Assembly (NCBI GenBank): GCA_013138805.1
Contig: WTCA01000009.1
Span: 1-39,775, forward strand
Reading direction: 5' to 3'
DNA: 39,775 bases
Source of the DNA: an archaeon
GTDB taxonomy: Archaea; EX4484-52; GLR71
In this document: positions 22,793-29,911 of the stretch, in pieces
Numbering within the stretch: the first letter of the stretch is position 1
How the letters are laid out: each line of letters starts with the position of its first letter
Made by a program: the position numbers and the translations under genes
The notes under the pieces: model-generated
What the model was told of the DNA's origin: nothing
The model's database searches: none
Seen by the model: the letters and a program-made list of their open reading frames with translations, nothing else

Positions 22793-25700
22793 ATGGACTA
22801 CTCCGATGTATTGAAAAAATTTGAGATTTTTCTGACAGATGTATGCTACAACCAGCTTTTGAAAGCTGTGCAGGAATCAACAGCCCTTGTTATAGACTAT
22901 GAAGCTCTTGAACGTTTTGATCCTGAGCTTTTCGACTATTTTCTTGAGCACCCGGAAGAGTGCATGCAGGCTGTAGACGAGGCGATGTCAAATATAGACA
23001 TAGGCGAAGAGGTGGAGAAGAAGATACCATTGAGGATAAGAAACCTTCCCGATACCGAGATGATCATGATAAAGAACTTAAGAAGCACTCATCTCTCACG
23101 ATTCATAGGTGTAGAAGGTCTGATAAAGCAGGCAAGCGAGGTAAGGCCGGAAATCACCTTTACTACTTGGGAATGCCAGTCCTGCGGCGAGAAGATTGCC
23201 ATGCTCCAGGAAGAGCAGACACTTGAGAAGCCCTACATGTGCGAATGCGGTAACAAGAGAGGTTTCCAGCTTGTAAGCCGCAAAATGATAGATGTCCAGC
23301 GAATTGTGACAGAGGAAAGCCCAGAATCCCTTGACGGCGGCCAGCAGGCAAGAAAGCTGGGCATATATCTGAAAAACGATCTTGTAGATCCGACATTCCA
23401 GAAGAAAGTGGTCCCGGGAAACAAGGTCCTTGTGACAGGTGTCCTGAACGACATGCCAATAAGGGTTGAAAGAGGCAAGGAGACAAAAAGGCGCGACATA
23501 TTTATTGACTGCAATTACCTTGAGCCGATAGAGAAGGAGTTTGAAGATATAGAGATAACAGAAGAGGACGAGAAGCAGATAAAGAAGATAGCGAAAGACA
23601 AGAAGATATTTGACATGCTAAAAAAATCGATTGCCCCATCAATTTTTGGCTATGAGGATATAAAGCTTGCGATAGCGTTCCAGATGTTCAGCGGTGTCCA
23701 GAAAGTAAGACCTGATGGCATGAAGACAAGGGGCGACATCCATATACTTCTTATAGGCGATCCCGGTGCCGCAAAATCACAGATGCTGAAATACGTCTCA
23801 TCTCTTGCCCCAAAAGGAAGATATGTCGTAGGAAAATCATCATCTGGTGCAGGATTGACAGCGGCGGCAGTAAAAGACGAGTTCACCGGTACCTGGGCTC
23901 TTGAGGCCGGCGCCCTTGTCCTTGCCAACGGCGGCATGTGCGCGATAGATGAGATGGACAAGATGGACGCGACAGACAGGAGTTCAATGCATGAAGTGAT
24001 GGAGCAACAATGCTATCATCCTGAAACATCCATAACTCTTGCGGACGGAAGATCAGTTCGAATCGGGCCGTTTGTGGAAAGTCTTATGAAAAAAGACAGG
24101 CATAAGGTGTATAGAGGTAAGGACTGCGAGATACTTCCAGTTGAAAATCTTCACATACAGTCAACAGATATGAAAAGCATATTTCATACAAAAATAAATA
24201 GGGTGAGCAGGCACAAAGCACCGGAAAATATGTACAGGATAACATACAGTAATGGAAGGATAATCTGCGTCACGCCAGAACACCCCACATTTGTCTTTCA
24301 TGGCGGCAGGATTGAAGAGATGAGGGCAGACAAAATACAGCCTGGAATGATAGCACCGGCGCCGCTGCATTATAAGATAACACCTAAGAATGACATACTG
24401 CTTGAGATTCCGGAAAAGTGGCATCATAACCTGAAAGACCTGTCATATCCTAAGGTTCTTGACACAAAGCTTGCACGATTCTTAGGCTACCTTGTCTCAG
24501 AAGGCCATACATACATAAACGAGAGAAACAGGTATGCTGAGGTAGGGATAACAAACACCAGCAAATATGTGCTTGATGATGTCAGATCTCTTTGGGAAGA
24601 TGTATTCAGTACAGTTCCGAATACACTTGTCCAGAACAGCCCGTCGCACGGCAACACATGCGAGGTCCAGATATTGCGCTGTTCATCAAAGATGCTGTAC
24701 AGCTTTCTTGAGACAAATTTTCCTGAAGTGATGGCGTTGTCTGTCAAAAGAGAAGTGCCTTTGAAGATAAGGCAGTCCACTCAGCAGATACAGTCCGAGT
24801 TCTTAAGATCCCTGTTCCTGGGCGATGGTTTCGCAGACAGCGAGCGGTTCGGATATGTCACATCTTCGCGGTCTCTTGCAGAAGGTATCCAGGATATCCT
24901 TCTATGCAATTCCATATGGTCTTATATTGCAGAGGATGTGCGCCCGCAGGGGACATATTATAAGGTCATCGTATCTTCAAAAGATAGCATGAAAACATTT
25001 AGTGACAGCATAGTATCGTCTTATGATCAAAGAGCAGAAAAGATAAGAAAGCTTGCCGCAAGATCAGCGTCAAGAGCTAACTCTACAGACATAGTGCCTT
25101 TTGAATATGTCCGGAGGATGTACAGCCTTCTTAAAGGGTACAGGATGCTTGACAGGTATTTCAACAAAATCATTGAAAAAAAACAGAACTCCAGTAAGGA
25201 TGTGGTAAAAAGATACATATCTCTTATTGAGAAAAGGATGCACAGCATATCTATGTCGGACACTCCCGAAACAATACGGAAAACATCTGCGATACCTGTT
25301 GAGGCAATAGCATCAAAGATAGGTGTATCTCCATCAACAATATATAATATTGAAAAAGACAGTAGCCACAAACAATATGATACTCTTTTAAGCACAGTAA
25401 GCAATCTTGCACGGAAAAAGCTTGATAGCACAAAAAAAGAGTTGAAAACCATAAACGATTTTGTCTTTTCGGATATGAGGTTTCTGAAAGTCAAGGATGT
25501 GGAGATTGTAGAGAATCACAGTCTCGACTGGGTATATGATGTCACGGTCGAGCCGGAAAAGACATTTCTGAGCGAAGGTCTGGTGCTTCACAACACCGTT
25601 ACCGTTAGCAAGGCAAGCATACAGGCAACCCTGAGCGCAAGGACTATCATACTTGCAGCAGCCAACCCTAAGTACGGAAGGTTTGACCCGTACACACCAA

Positions 25701-26395
25701 TACCTGATCAGATAAACCTGCCTGACACCCTTATAAGCCGTTTTGACCTTATCTTCGCAATCCGTGATATACCTAGCAGGGAGAAAGACACATCTCTTGC
25801 AGAACATATACTGAGACTTCACGAGAACCCTGAAGAAGAGAATGTTCCCATGTCAGCAGAGATGCTCAGGAAATATATAGCTTATGCAAGGACCAACTGC
25901 GCCCCAAAACTTACCAAAGGTGCAATAGATGCCATAAAAGAGTTCTACGTAAACATAAGGAACCAGAATTCTGAAGATGAGAAAGCTCCGATTCCCCTGA
26001 CAGCAAGGCAGCTTGAAGCTCTTGTCAGGCTGGCAGAGGCGAGCGCAAAGATACGTCTTTCAGAGACAGTTACAAAGGCTGACGCCGCCCGCGGCATAGA
26101 CCTTCTGACCAACTGCCTCAAACAGGTAGGGATTGACCCTGAGACAGGCCAGTTTGACATAGATCGCCTCAGTTCAGGAGTGACATCAAGCAAGAGAAAC
26201 AAGATAATGGATATACTGAGAATCATAAAAGAGATGCAGGATGAAAGTCCTGACAAGCTTGTCAATCGCGAGGATCTCATAAGCAGGGCTGAAGAGGAAG
26301 GCATGGACTCTGCCAAGGTAGAAGAGATAATTGAGTCCTTGAGACGGGACGGCGAGCTTTTCGAGCCAAGACCCGGATTCCTAAAGAAGGTGTAG
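22793..26395 (+). CDS. mcm: Replicative helicase MCM precursor, intein-containing
   Basis: Zinc ribbon CQSCGEK...CECG, Walker A GDPGAAKSQML, Walker B MCAIDEMDKM, sensor 1 ILAAANPKYGRF, arginine-finger region LISRFDLIF, C-terminal winged helix; interrupted by an intein. Confidence 0.97.
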   Translation: MDYSDVLKKFEIFLTDVCYNQLLKAVQESTALVIDYEALERFDPELFDYFLEHPEECMQAVDEAMSNIDIGEEVEKKIPLRIRNLPDTEMIMIKNLRSTHLSRFIGVEGLIKQASEVRPEITFTTWECQSCGEKIAMLQEEQTLEKPYMCECGNKRGFQLVSRKMIDVQRIVTEESPESLDGGQQARKLGIYLKNDLVDPTFQKKVVPGNKVLVTGVLNDMPIRVERGKETKRRDIFIDCNYLEPIEKEFEDIEITEEDEKQIKKIAKDKKIFDMLKKSIAPSIFGYEDIKLAIAFQMFSGVQKVRPDGMKTRGDIHILLIGDPGAAKSQMLKYVSSLAPKGRYVVGKSSSGAGLTAAAVKDEFTGTWALEAGALVLANGGMCAIDEMDKMDATDRSSMHEVMEQQCYHPETSITLADGRSVRIGPFVESLMKKDRHKVYRGKDCEILPVENLHIQSTDMKSIFHTKINRVSRHKAPENMYRITYSNGRIICVTPEHPTFVFHGGRIEEMRADKIQPGMIAPAPLHYKITPKNDILLEIPEKWHHNLKDLSYPKVLDTKLARFLGYLVSEGHTYINERNRYAEVGITNTSKYVLDDVRSLWEDVFSTVPNTLVQNSPSHGNTCEVQILRCSSKMLYSFLETNFPEVMALSVKREVPLKIRQSTQQIQSEFLRSLFLGDGFADSERFGYVTSSRSLAEGIQDILLCNSIWSYIAEDVRPQGTYYKVIVSSKDSMKTFSDSIVSSYDQRAEKIRKLAARSASRANSTDIVPFEYVRRMYSLLKGYRMLDRYFNKIIEKKQNSSKDVVKRYISLIEKRMHSISMSDTPETIRKTSAIPVEAIASKIGVSPSTIYNIEKDSSHKQYDTLLSTVSNLARKKLDSTKKELKTINDFVFSDMRFLKVKDVEIVENHSLDWVYDVTVEPEKTFLSEGLVLHNTVTVSKASIQATLSARTIILAAANPKYGRFDPYTPIPDQINLPDTLISRFDLIFAIRDIPSREKDTSLAEHILRLHENPEEENVPMSAEMLRKYIAYARTNCAPKLTKGAIDAIKEFYVNIRNQNSEDEKAPIPLTARQLEALVRLAEASAKIRLSETVTKADAARGIDLLTNCLKQVGIDPETGQFDIDRLSSGVTSSKRNKIMDILRIIKEMQDESPDKLVNREDLISRAEEEGMDSAKVEEIIESLRRDGELFEPRPGFLKKV
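24011..25594 (+). mobile_element. In-frame intein (528 aa) with LAGLIDADG-type homing endonuclease motifs
   Basis: Insertion MEQQ|CYHPETSITLADG...FLSEGLVLHN|TVTVSKA; block A Cys1, block B TPEHPTF, endonuclease motifs LGYLVSEGH and LRSLFLGDGF, block F/G VYDVTVEPEKTFLSEGLVLHN. Confidence 0.95.
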
Positions 26396-26398
26396 ATT

Positions 26399-27175
26399 AT
26401 GCATGAAGCAAAGAGACACCCTGCATACAAGCTGGACATATCAGACATAACATGCAACCCTTATATCAAGACCGAGGCTGATCTTGAACCAAATTATATA
26501 GACATCGCAGGAAAGCTTAAAGTGATAAGGGTAAGACTCCTAGCCAAAGTCACCTTCAAGTATCTTTCTGACGACGGCAACTACGCATCCATAACTCTTG
26601 GCGACGGCAAAAATTCCATAAGGGTGAAAGCCTGGCAGGACATAAGATGCCTCAAGGAAACAGAGAAAGAGAATCTTATAGACATCATCGCAAATGTCAG
26701 GGAATGGAACGGTGAGGTATACCTTGTACCTGAAGTCCTGAGAAAGATAGATGACCCAAATCTTGAGACCTTAAGGCGCCTTGAGATACAGAAGTTCAGG
26801 AAGGATATGGGTTTTCCGGAAAAGGAAGATATCGAAAAAGAGATAGGTTCTGAAAATAAGACAGTGCCTGATGTCCCTGCTATTGTTGATACTGATACGA
26901 AAGATATTGACGATAAAGAGAAAGAAGATAAAGCCGAAACATTGAAAGAGGAAGCTCCTGCAAAAGAGGAAAAGAAACCGGAGAAAGAGGAAAAGAGCTT
27001 AAGAGTCCTTGTGCTTGAAATCATAGATAAGCTTGATGAGGGTGACGGTGCTGATTTTGAAGATGTCCTTGGGTCTGTCAAAGGCCCGGAAAAAGAAGTA
27101 GAAGCAATAATCAACGATTTCCTGAGCGAAGGCACATGCTACGAGCCAAGAGCCGGAAAGATAAAGGTTCTATGA
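26399..27175 (+). CDS. RPA-like OB-fold single-strand DNA-binding protein with C-terminal winged helix
   Basis: OB-fold region IAGKLKVIRVRLLAKVTFKYLSDDGNYASITLGDGKNSIRVKAW, charged linker, wHTH tail; 3 nt after mcm. Confidence 0.8.
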   Translation: MHEAKRHPAYKLDISDITCNPYIKTEADLEPNYIDIAGKLKVIRVRLLAKVTFKYLSDDGNYASITLGDGKNSIRVKAWQDIRCLKETEKENLIDIIANVREWNGEVYLVPEVLRKIDDPNLETLRRLEIQKFRKDMGFPEKEDIEKEIGSENKTVPDVPAIVDTDTKDIDDKEKEDKAETLKEEAPAKEEKKPEKEEKSLRVLVLEIIDKLDEGDGADFEDVLGSVKGPEKEVEAIINDFLSEGTCYEPRAGKIKVL

Positions 27176-27373
27176 TTGTATAGTGTCTAATAATTGTTTG
27201 TATTCTTTCTTGTCTATTTCTCCCGATGCTAATCTTCTGTCAAGCATATCTTTGGCAGTATAGTTTTCTTTATTTTTTGAATCTTTTAAGACCCATATAA
27301 TCAAAGATATTGTTATTATGAAAAATAATATTTGTGAACCTATCATATATGTCATTCCATACCCATAAACCAT
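27170..27373 (-). CDS. SHOCT-domain small membrane protein
   Basis: N-terminal TM helix and DMLDRRLASGEIDKKEYKQLLDTI (SHOCT motif); SD GGAGGT. Confidence 0.8.
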   Translation of the reverse strand: MVYGYGMTYMIGSQILFFIITISLIIWVLKDSKNKENYTAKDMLDRRLASGEIDKKEYKQLLDTIQS

Positions 27374-27414
27374 TTCAATTACCTCCTTTTAAAAAATAAA
27401 AAAGAAAGGTGAAA

Positions 27415-27885
27415 TTACCTTCCCCTTCCAAATTTCATGCCTTCATTGTCGCAGTTTCCATCACAGTCTGTATTGATGAAGTTATTTTGTGACATCTTTT
27501 GTCCCATAACCTGTCCCATTCCTTTGCCATGGCCAGTGCCGTCTCGTGGACCTTGTCCGTTATTCAGCCCGAGTTCTGCTCTTAATTCCGCAGCAAGTTC
27601 ATGGTCACCATTTTCTGCTGCTTCATGTGCCTGTGCAAAGATCTCAAAATTGCTTTCTGTCACAACATCTGCAACCCGAGGATGCCTTCCATTTTCAGTC
27701 ATAAGCTGATACCAGCTTTCATAGTCTGATGTCTCAAAAGCATTTTCCATAGTATCATGCCTTTCCTCATCACAGTATGGACCTTGTATGGATGGGTCTC
27801 CTCTGTAAGCGCTTGCAACTCCTGTTGAGACAATTATCCCAACAACCACAAGCACAGACAATCCAACTTTTGTCGCTTTTTTCAT
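27415..27885 (-). CDS. Secreted protein with Met/His/Gly-rich C-terminus, putative metal-binding
   Basis: Signal peptide MKKATKVGLSVLVVVGIIVSTGVASA; tail GTGHGKGMGQVMGQKMSQNNFINTDCDGNCDNEGMKFGRGR; SD GGAGGT 7 nt before ATG at 27885. Confidence 0.7.
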   Translation of the reverse strand: MKKATKVGLSVLVVVGIIVSTGVASAYRGDPSIQGPYCDEERHDTMENAFETSDYESWYQLMTENGRHPRVADVVTESNFEIFAQAHEAAENGDHELAAELRAELGLNNGQGPRDGTGHGKGMGQVMGQKMSQNNFINTDCDGNCDNEGMKFGRGR

Positions 27886-27946
27886 TTTATTTACCTCCAT
27901 GTCAAATTGATTCAATTGTTTCTTTTGACTTAAGATATCATATGGT

Positions 27947-28019
27947 TGAAACTATACATAATACTTTCTGAAACTATAATTCTTTAGATGAAACTGAGTT
28001 TCAATATGATGAAACTATA
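27947..28019. promoter_or_regulatory. Phased TGAAACT repeat array (putative operators)
   Basis: TGAAACTATA at 27947, 27969 and 28010, plus TGAAACT at 27989 within the palindrome GAAACT-G-AGTTTC (27990-28002); spacings 22, 20, 21 bp. Confidence 0.75.
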
Positions 28020-28068
28020 AAAAATTATAGGTGTGTCTTTATATATTTTGGACAATAGACTATTGTCT

Positions 28069-28626
28069 ATGGTCTTGGATTATAATAGAAAACTTATCCT
28101 CGGTATTGGAATAATAATATCATTCGCTTTGCTGATGATATCAATCAGCATCTATTTCAATTTCCAGCATGATCTTAGAGAACAATCAAGACTTGATCCT
28201 GATATGATTGATAGCATGACAACGGAACAGATTAAAGAATTTATAGTAGAACAAAGAAAGACGCAGCCCGTATTCCACAGTTATTATCTTTTGCCTTTCA
28301 TAGGTTTTATTGGCCTTCTTGTTGGGACTGTAGTGTTCTATATCATGTCAGATAAAGTGGTGCAGCAGAGGCAGACATTGACTAGCAACACAAAGATAAT
28401 CCTTAATTTCCTGACACCTCCTGAAAGAAAAGTGATAGAGACGCTTTTAGAGAATGATGGAAAGGTCCAGCAATATGAATTGTCCCGTCTGCCAGATCTG
28501 AACAAGGTAAAGACACACAGAATCTTATTGAACCTGGAGCAAAAAAAGATTATTCATAAAGAAAAGCTTGGAAAGATAAACAAGATTGTTCTTGACAAGG
28601 AATTGTATGATGCTCTTAAGAATTGA
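28069..28626 (+). CDS. Membrane-anchored winged-helix transcriptional regulator
   Basis: TM1 LILGIGIIISFALLMISISIYF, about 45-residue extracytoplasmic loop, TM2 LLPFIGFIGLLVGTVVFYIM, cytoplasmic wHTH LTPPERKVIETLLENDGKVQQYELSRLPDLNKVKTHRILLNLEQKKII. ATG 28069 preferred over GTG 28033. Confidence 0.75.
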   Translation: MVLDYNRKLILGIGIIISFALLMISISIYFNFQHDLREQSRLDPDMIDSMTTEQIKEFIVEQRKTQPVFHSYYLLPFIGFIGLLVGTVVFYIMSDKVVQQRQTLTSNTKIILNFLTPPERKVIETLLENDGKVQQYELSRLPDLNKVKTHRILLNLEQKKIIHKEKLGKINKIVLDKELYDALKN

Positions 28627-28694: not shown

Positions 28695-29072
28695 CTATTC
28701 AATTATGAATACCTTTATCGCTTCAAGATGTCTTTGCACATCGTCCAGCCTGCCATCTTTGCAATATCCCCAAATATGGCTGAATTCATATGTTTCTGCC
28801 TTAAGATAGCTTTGTTCTCCCTCTAAAATTATTCCATGATCACTGAATATTATAGGTTCTATAGAATCATCTCGCCTGAGAACATTTGTTAAATCAGATC
28901 TGTCCCAAGATTTTATAGGGGTTGATGTTAGATTCTCTACCGGAATAAGCACAAGGCTGTCCTTGTATTTATTATAGTCTCCATAAATATTTAGAGGAAA
29001 TGTTGTTATATCCATTTGTCTAAGTTCATCTAATATATGCTCTTTATTCAGGTGTATCGGTTCTGTAGACAT
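28695..29072 (-). CDS. Hypothetical protein
   Basis: 125-aa ORF, no recognised domain. Confidence 0.55.
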   Translation of the reverse strand: MSTEPIHLNKEHILDELRQMDITTFPLNIYGDYNKYKDSLVLIPVENLTSTPIKSWDRSDLTNVLRRDDSIEPIIFSDHGIILEGEQSYLKAETYEFSHIWGYCKDGRLDDVQRHLEAIKVFIIE

Positions 29073-29164: not shown

Positions 29165-29911
29165 ATGGAAATATTTATCCAGATCATTACAACCTTCCTT
29201 ATAGGCGTATTCGCAAGTTTCATAGGAGCAATAGCAGGAGGTGGAGGCCTAATTTCAATACCTTTCCTGATCTTTCTCGGCCTCCCCCCACAGGTGGCGA
29301 TAGCGACAAACAAGTTGGGAGGTGCCGGACTAAGCTTGGGTGCAGCAGCCAAATTCTGGAAAGAAAAAAAGATAATCTGGAAAGCAGTAATGCCTCTATG
29401 CCTGATAGGCATCATTGGCGCATACCTCGGAGCGAACATCCTGCTGAATATTGACCAGGCAATCCTGTCAAAGATGGTCGGCTTCATGCTGCTGATACTT
29501 CTGCCTCTGACACTGCTGAAAAAAGACATAGGCCTGAAACAAAAAGACACAAGACCTATCGATAAAGGGGTAGGGTATGTCCTCTTTTTCTTCCTGATGG
29601 TCTTCGGCGGTTTTTTCGGAGGAGGGGCAGGAACACTGATGTTTTACATCCTGATGTACTTCTTCGGCTTCACAATAATCCAGTCAAATGCCACAAGCAT
29701 AATCCCCTGGTTTGTAATGTCTATTACATCCCTGATAATTTTCATAATCAACGGCATCGTGGTCTATCAGGTAGGCATATCTCTTTTCGCAGGTATGCTC
29801 ATAGGTGGATACCTTGGCGCGCAAACAGCAGTAAATAAAGGCAACAGATGGGTAAAAATAATATTCCTTGCAGTTGTTCTTGCTTCAGCGGTAAAGATAC
29901 TGTTTTTCTGA
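29165..29911 (+). CDS. TauE/SafE family transporter (DUF81)
   Basis: GAIAGGGGLISIPFLIFLGLPPQVAIATNKLGG and GGFFGGGAGTLMFYILMYFFGFTIIQSNATS repeat signatures. Confidence 0.92.
   Translation: MEIFIQIITTFLIGVFASFIGAIAGGGGLISIPFLIFLGLPPQVAIATNKLGGAGLSLGAAAKFWKEKKIIWKAVMPLCLIGIIGAYLGANILLNIDQAILSKMVGFMLLILLPLTLLKKDIGLKQKDTRPIDKGVGYVLFFFLMVFGGFFGGGAGTLMFYILMYFFGFTIIQSNATSIIPWFVMSITSLIIFIINGIVVYQVGISLFAGMLIGGYLGAQTAVNKGNRWVKIIFLAVVLASAVKILFF

Follow-up and report, generated by a model that had tools for sequence, protein, structure and literature searches.

Putative control of a two-operon surface regulon by a membrane-anchored DUF7343 winged-helix protein and its tandem iterons in DPANN archaea

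We propose, with a probability of about 75%, that a membrane-anchored winged-helix regulator (REG) controls two operons as one regulon, namely the divergent pair encoding a secreted helical protein (EXP) and a SHOCT peptide, and a second, unlinked operon. This figure covers the regulon and not the sign of the control, and the proposal is built on comparison of genome sequences. The three genes lie in the window, i.e. the whole stretch of 39,775 nucleotides that was analysed, whose contig is part of a 1.33-Mb archaeal MAG with named relatives labelled Aenigmatarchaeota, Nanohaloarchaea or DPANN. The ORF check identified 27170-27373 and 27415-27885 (both on the minus strand) and the divergent 28069-28626 (plus strand) as real genes. 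The two minus-strand genes are both preceded by strong Shine-Dalgarno sequences of the AGGAGGT type, as the original prediction had stated. The features of the locus are as follows.

27170..27373, minus strand: SHOCT peptide gene, 67 aa, with a TM helix at aa 6-33 and a SHOCT-like C-terminus at aa 44-63; orthologs lie behind EXP elsewhere.
27381..27386, minus strand: Shine-Dalgarno core (AGGAGGT) of the SHOCT gene, read from the sequence as ACCTCC on the plus strand.
27415..27885, minus strand: EXP gene, 156 aa, with a signal segment, a helical domain at aa 40-105, a Gly/Asn/Gln-rich linker and a C-terminal DxDGxCD-type loop.
27893..27898, minus strand: Shine-Dalgarno core of EXP, AGGAGGT-type (ACCTCC on the plus strand), kept in orthologs.
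27947..27955, plus strand: iteron 1, TGAAACTAT, which overlaps the putative TATA box of EXP at its downstream edge.
27953..27964, minus strand: predicted EXP TATA-box region, GTATTATGTATA on the minus strand, between iterons 1 and 2 and conserved in 20 promoters.
27969..27977, plus strand: iteron 2, TGAAACTAT, 22 bp from iteron 1 and just upstream of the predicted EXP BRE/TATA.
27989..28003, plus strand: iteron 3, the palindromic variant TGAAACTGAGTTTCA, 20 bp from iteron 2.
28010..28018, plus strand: iteron 4, TGAAACTAT, 21 bp from iteron 3 and upstream of the REG TATA box.
28038..28046, plus strand: predicted REG TATA box, TTTATATAT, ~23 bp before the ATG; orthologs have a T/A-rich element here.
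28069..28626, plus strand: REG gene, 185 aa, with TM1 at aa 6-33, a loop at ~aa 36-70, TM2 at aa 71-95 and a DUF7343 wHTH at aa 118-175.

Between EXP and SHOCT we also observed a stem-loop followed by a T run (27397-27430, minus strand), and a similar inverted repeat seemingly occurs in the congener G001. The stem-loop possibly causes partial termination, and hence more EXP than SHOCT. The window further carries an MCM helicase gene (22793-26395, plus strand) with an in-frame LAGLIDADG intein (Pfam Intein_splicing and LAGLIDADG_3); the intein is absent at the same site in G001 and G002, and G005 has a full-length match. The genes p125 (28695-29072) and TauE (29165-29911) adjoin REG only in G002, the nearest relative, and were left out of the module.

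The C-terminus of REG matched DUF7343 (PF24034) with 35.4 bits against the Pfam cut-off of 27.6, and the match was present in all 14 aligned members of the REG family. Two hydrophobic segments were found, at aa 6-33 and aa 71-95. In the AF2 model, which was built from 14 sequences and has a pTM of 0.44, two long helices flank a helical loop, TM2 continues into a long helix, and the wHTH is confident, with pLDDT mostly in the eighties; the best Foldseek matches were ArsR/MarR-type wHTH proteins. The two-TM protein with a wHTH that had been described as divergent to the pair is thereby confirmed. The predicted topology has the helical loop outside and the wHTH inside. REG combines membrane segments and a DNA-binding domain in a single polypeptide and has no kinase, which is the architecture of a membrane-bound one-component regulator. 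Its start is the ATG at 28069, which is conserved among orthologs. The GTG at 28033, previously given as the start, was rejected, as it lies upstream of the putative TATA box TTTATATAT and the intervening stretch has in-frame stops in several relatives.

The EXP-REG gap holds four TGAAACTAT-type iterons, spaced 22, 20 and 21 bp in the gap alignment. This array, absent from the original prediction, is the strongest evidence for the proposed regulation. Derived from 20 promoters, the iteron consensus in the target orientation reads ATAGTTTCAG-N-AA-N2-AATATGTATAGTTTCA. The core pair is 22 bp apart, with further sites 20 and 21 bp upstream, and this arrangement was found in loci from several phyla. 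Single TGAAACTAT matches at one mismatch occurred in the window at chance level (15 found, 15.8 expected), and the spaced pair occurred once, exactly, with 0.07 expected at up to 3 mismatches. The EXP TATA box, putatively at 27953-27964, was placed by eye; a sigma-70 promoter scan of the window is uninformative for archaea. The REG transcript is probably leaderless.

The gene block is conserved well beyond the window. All three genes occur together in the congeners G001, G003 and G005, in G002 (over two contigs) and in G006 (up to the contig end), as well as in G007, G018 and G029, and EXP with REG is present in G009 and G012. Scanning the GTDB representatives with the EXP alignment gave 42 loci from DPANN archaea and CPR bacteria, among which REG is divergent in 12 and SHOCT stands behind EXP in 10. 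The loci with divergent REG include some from MAGs named Aenigmatarchaeota, Nanohaloarchaea, Woesearchaeota, Nanoarchaeota and Micrarchaeota, and SHOCT follows EXP in most of them. The conserved archaeal neighbourhood that had been put forward as a check was therefore found: the triad or its EXP-REG core recurs, other phyla included, in changed surroundings. That the arrangement is mere inherited synteny, with repeats unrelated to REG, is very improbable. Within the window genus the block has a fixed position next to MCM and an RPA-like gene, but in other phyla its surroundings differ (outside the genus, neither MCM nor RPA was matched next to it), and the repeats are also present at another, unlinked operon and are nearly confined to genomes with REG.

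The array tracks REG closely. It was found at 13/13 EXP loci with an adjacent REG (the window included) and at 1/28 without (Fisher 8e-10), counts that share ancestry and are not phylogenetically independent; the EXP tree contained one independent pair on well-supported branches and 6 on the best tree, and a single clade of REG-type EXP genes was not rejected (p-AU 0.078). L121 was excluded from the count; its REG-like gene is diverged and lies downstream, and its repeats are variants spaced 21 and 22 bp. In whole-genome scans, an exact iteron pair was present in 8/10 genomes with REG and in 0/11 without it. In the 26 genomes that the loci led to, 9 exact pairs were found; they are confined to 6 genomes, of which 5 have REG. 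The exception is G065, which holds the L116 operon and has iteron pairs, and in which REG was not found, perhaps due to incompleteness of the MAG. At L116 (1-1430), a subtilisin-like protease gene occupies the divergent place of REG across the iteron array. G066 has two REG genes, with site pairs near each.

In the window genome, the only other match with <3 mismatches was C75:15626-15656. It belongs to the operon C75:15626-16816 (L093:7627-8817), which encodes an exported 160-aa protein, a His-rich lipoprotein carrying HEHDDEHDHS, and a DUF4405 protein (35.8 bits against the Pfam cut-off of 26.7). The C75 site is kept in three congeners, in one of them directly before the lipoprotein gene. 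At six other loci (L109, L110, L111, L112, L116 and L117), EXP or EXP-SHOCT is immediately followed by the lipoprotein and DUF4405 genes, and L116 has a second iteron pair in front of SHOCT. Since these genes follow EXP in other DPANN archaea, the operon has been split in the window genus, with iteron sites kept on both halves. DUF4405 proteins bind haem b, and a role in transmembrane electron transfer has been suggested for them (PMC11334425). By analogy, the protein of the second operon may be a FezC/DUF4405-like haem-type protein; compared with the FezC cytochromes (PMC11334425), it is short (~90 aa), is paired with a His-rich lipoprotein and comes from DPANN archaea.

The SHOCT assignment is weak in the window protein, which scored 18.3 bits (E=0.0019) against Pfam SHOCT (PF09851), under the gathering score of 27 bits. 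It holds for the family, 5/9 members of which are matched by Pfam SHOCT with a best E of 8.5e-8. The TM-SHOCT peptide of the original prediction can thus be kept as one TM helix with a SHOCT-like C-terminus. At L057 (934-1588) and L080 (G026:C47), a SHOCT peptide gene stands immediately before a co-oriented gene for a compact TM-wHTH regulator of 140 aa from the REG family, so the pairing of SHOCT with a TM-wHTH protein is also met outside EXP loci.

Archaeal EXP loci without REG (L105-L108, L113-L115, L118, L119, L122-L126 and L128) mostly pair a divergent multi-TM protein with an HTH_45 protein. Their conserved element also differs: it is TGGACTTnAAGTGTACAT, and it precedes a strong TATA, TTTATAAA. 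In the CPR bacterial loci (L131 and L133-L142), EXP comes after a TM anti-sigma-like protein, with an ECF sigma factor in 8 of the 11. We make no claim of an ECF -35/-10 motif at these CPR promoters, where the regular expression performed barely above background. REG-type and HTH_45-type archaeal loci are interleaved on the EXP tree, with weak support, and a single clade of HTH_45-type EXP genes was rejected (p-AU 0.029). Distant REG homologs have GAAACC pairs at ~22 bp with a TTTATATA-like sequence between them, and face a divergent MacB-type ABC ATPase (L013), a distant EXP-like protein (L017) or an exported protein (L012). In the L012 homolog (1447-2007, G052), the outer loop carries HTEECSLLEGCPHEQE, which is not in the window REG and may form a metal or disulfide site. 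A paralogous set at L076 (6865-8084, G027:C57) comprises another two-TM wHTH protein, with an EXP-like protein and a MacB-type ABC ATPase encoded divergently to it, and its gap repeats differ, being of the GATACGATAC type. Where another type of regulator replaces REG, the operator changes along with it. It is an evenly balanced proposition that EXP is the core output of a DPANN/CPR envelope response wired to three unrelated trans-membrane devices (a two-TM DUF7343 one-component regulator, a multi-TM protein with HTH_45, and an ECF sigma factor with a TM anti-sigma-like protein), the operator being exchanged with the regulator.

Because of the strict co-occurrence, the conserved geometry and the second site, we infer that REG binds the iterons. 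Anchored by its two membrane helices, it would bind the tandem TGAAACTAT repeats cooperatively on one face of the DNA. The 22-bp core pair, which corresponds to two helical turns, would let REG flank the TATA in the EXP-SHOCT promoter and in that of the second operon, and REG would repress by blocking TBP/TFB, with release once an envelope signal reaches the outer loop. The upstream iterons would allow autoregulation. As to the sign, we lean towards repression because the core pair brackets the TATA/BRE, a reading that depends on the TATA placed by eye, and leave activation a substantial share of the probability.

The same regulon with REG as an activator, binding upstream of the BRE and recruiting TBP/TFB to a weak TATA, is a reading that we hold to be clearly less probable than even. 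With TATGTATA, the EXP TATA elements are weaker than those at the loci without REG (TTTATAAA), which moreover have their operator just upstream of the BRE/TATA, i.e. in an activator position. CPR EXP sits behind an ECF sigma factor, which is a positive device, and the closest analogue described so far, ArnR, acts as an activator (PMC6396743). Such a role is harder to reconcile with iteron 1, which overlaps the downstream TATA edge, where bound REG should clash with TBP/TFB.

The output of the regulon would be a surface set composed of the secreted helical protein, the SHOCT membrane peptide, the His-rich lipoprotein and the FezC/DUF4405-like haem protein, which could plausibly form a module for extracytoplasmic redox reactions or for protection of the envelope. 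That the 27415-27885 product is exported had been predicted before and agrees with its signal-type N-terminus. In the predicted structure, its helical domain (aa 40-105) has pLDDT values mostly of 78-93. We found no relevant Pfam family for EXP, no PDB sequence match, and no Foldseek match at E≤0.001. CpxP, Spy and CnrX are small secreted helical periplasmic stress proteins under a trans-membrane regulator. EXP resembles them in outline, but membership was rejected, as no match was obtained by Pfam, PDB sequence or fold. An extracytoplasmic sensor or feedback partner of the CpxP or CnrX kind, binding the outer loop of REG, would likewise be small, secreted, helical and mostly encoded beside a trans-membrane regulator, and its partner may change. 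This role is nevertheless unlikely for EXP, given the missing CpxP/CnrX match and the three unrelated regulator types exchanged beside it, which speak against dependence on the REG loop. We read EXP as an output, and not as the ligand of REG, because it stays while the regulators are exchanged.

The original prediction had placed a membrane regulator in control of the pair under envelope or metal stress. Support for the coupling is strong, coming from co-occurrence and the array that tracks REG; the metal-stress part is unsupported. A Cu/Zn/Ni regulon with EXP as a metal-binding effector could draw on the Met residues and the one His of the window tail, on the HEHDDEHDHS lipoprotein of the second operon, and on the ZIP and cation-efflux genes beside that operon in one relative. 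Over 41 homologs, however, the EXP tails consist of 27% Gly, 14% Asn, 10% Gln, 5% Met, 2.6% His and 2.1% Cys, and about a third of the homologs have a DxNGDGxC-like loop. The tail, previously described as Met/His/Gly/Cys-rich, is thus Gly/Asn/Gln-rich as a family trait, whereas Met, His and Cys are not conserved, and the metal-site reading of the tail was rejected. Moreover, the REG loop of close orthologs has no conserved Cys/His cluster or metal-site pattern, and the neighbour census gave no recurrent metal ATPase or metallochaperone. We consider a metal-stress regulon improbable; a metal or redox role is possible only via the co-regulated His-rich lipoprotein and DUF4405 protein. At L096 (G005:C88), we observed that the lipoprotein-DUF4405 pair adjoins genes for a glutaredoxin/DsbD-like membrane protein, a ZIP transporter, a DUF134 protein and a cation-efflux protein.

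Membrane-bound one-component regulators are already known in archaea. ArnR and ArnR1 of Sulfolobus acidocaldarius act on the promoter of a surface structure through two boxes, both needed for binding (PMC6396743). ArnR carries its HTH at the N-terminus and its TMs at the C-terminus, has a putative HAMP and sensor region, and its boxes are inverted repeats, TCGAC-N5-GTCGA (PMC6396743). REG shares with ArnR the archaeal one-component design, an HTH combined with two TM helices, but the order is reversed relative to the ArnR family (N-terminal HTH, HAMP, two C-terminal TMs): its TMs are N-terminal, the DUF7343 wHTH is C-terminal, no HAMP was matched, and its candidate operator consists of direct iterons straddling the TATA. 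The SHOCT peptide resembles SHOCT envelope-stress partners (PMC3581485, PMC11237479) in having a TM helix and a C-terminal SHOCT-like motif beside a regulator gene; no PspA/PspC/Lia-type gene was recognised among the recurrent neighbour clusters. Our literature search found no paper naming the DUF7343 family, and no description of the REG architecture, operator, regulon or exchange pattern. The two-TM DUF7343 architecture, its operator, its regulon and the exchange pattern thus appear to be new, and for DUF7343 the first three are now described for one branch.

Transcription control is almost unstudied in DPANN archaea, and here a regulator, its putative operator with a short DNA code, and a two-operon regulon could be read from genomes alone. 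The retention of EXP, while three kinds of regulator are exchanged beside it, marks an important surface function in ultrasmall, mostly host-dependent prokaryotes of both domains. EXP would thus offer a direct handle on what the envelopes of such prokaryotes respond to.
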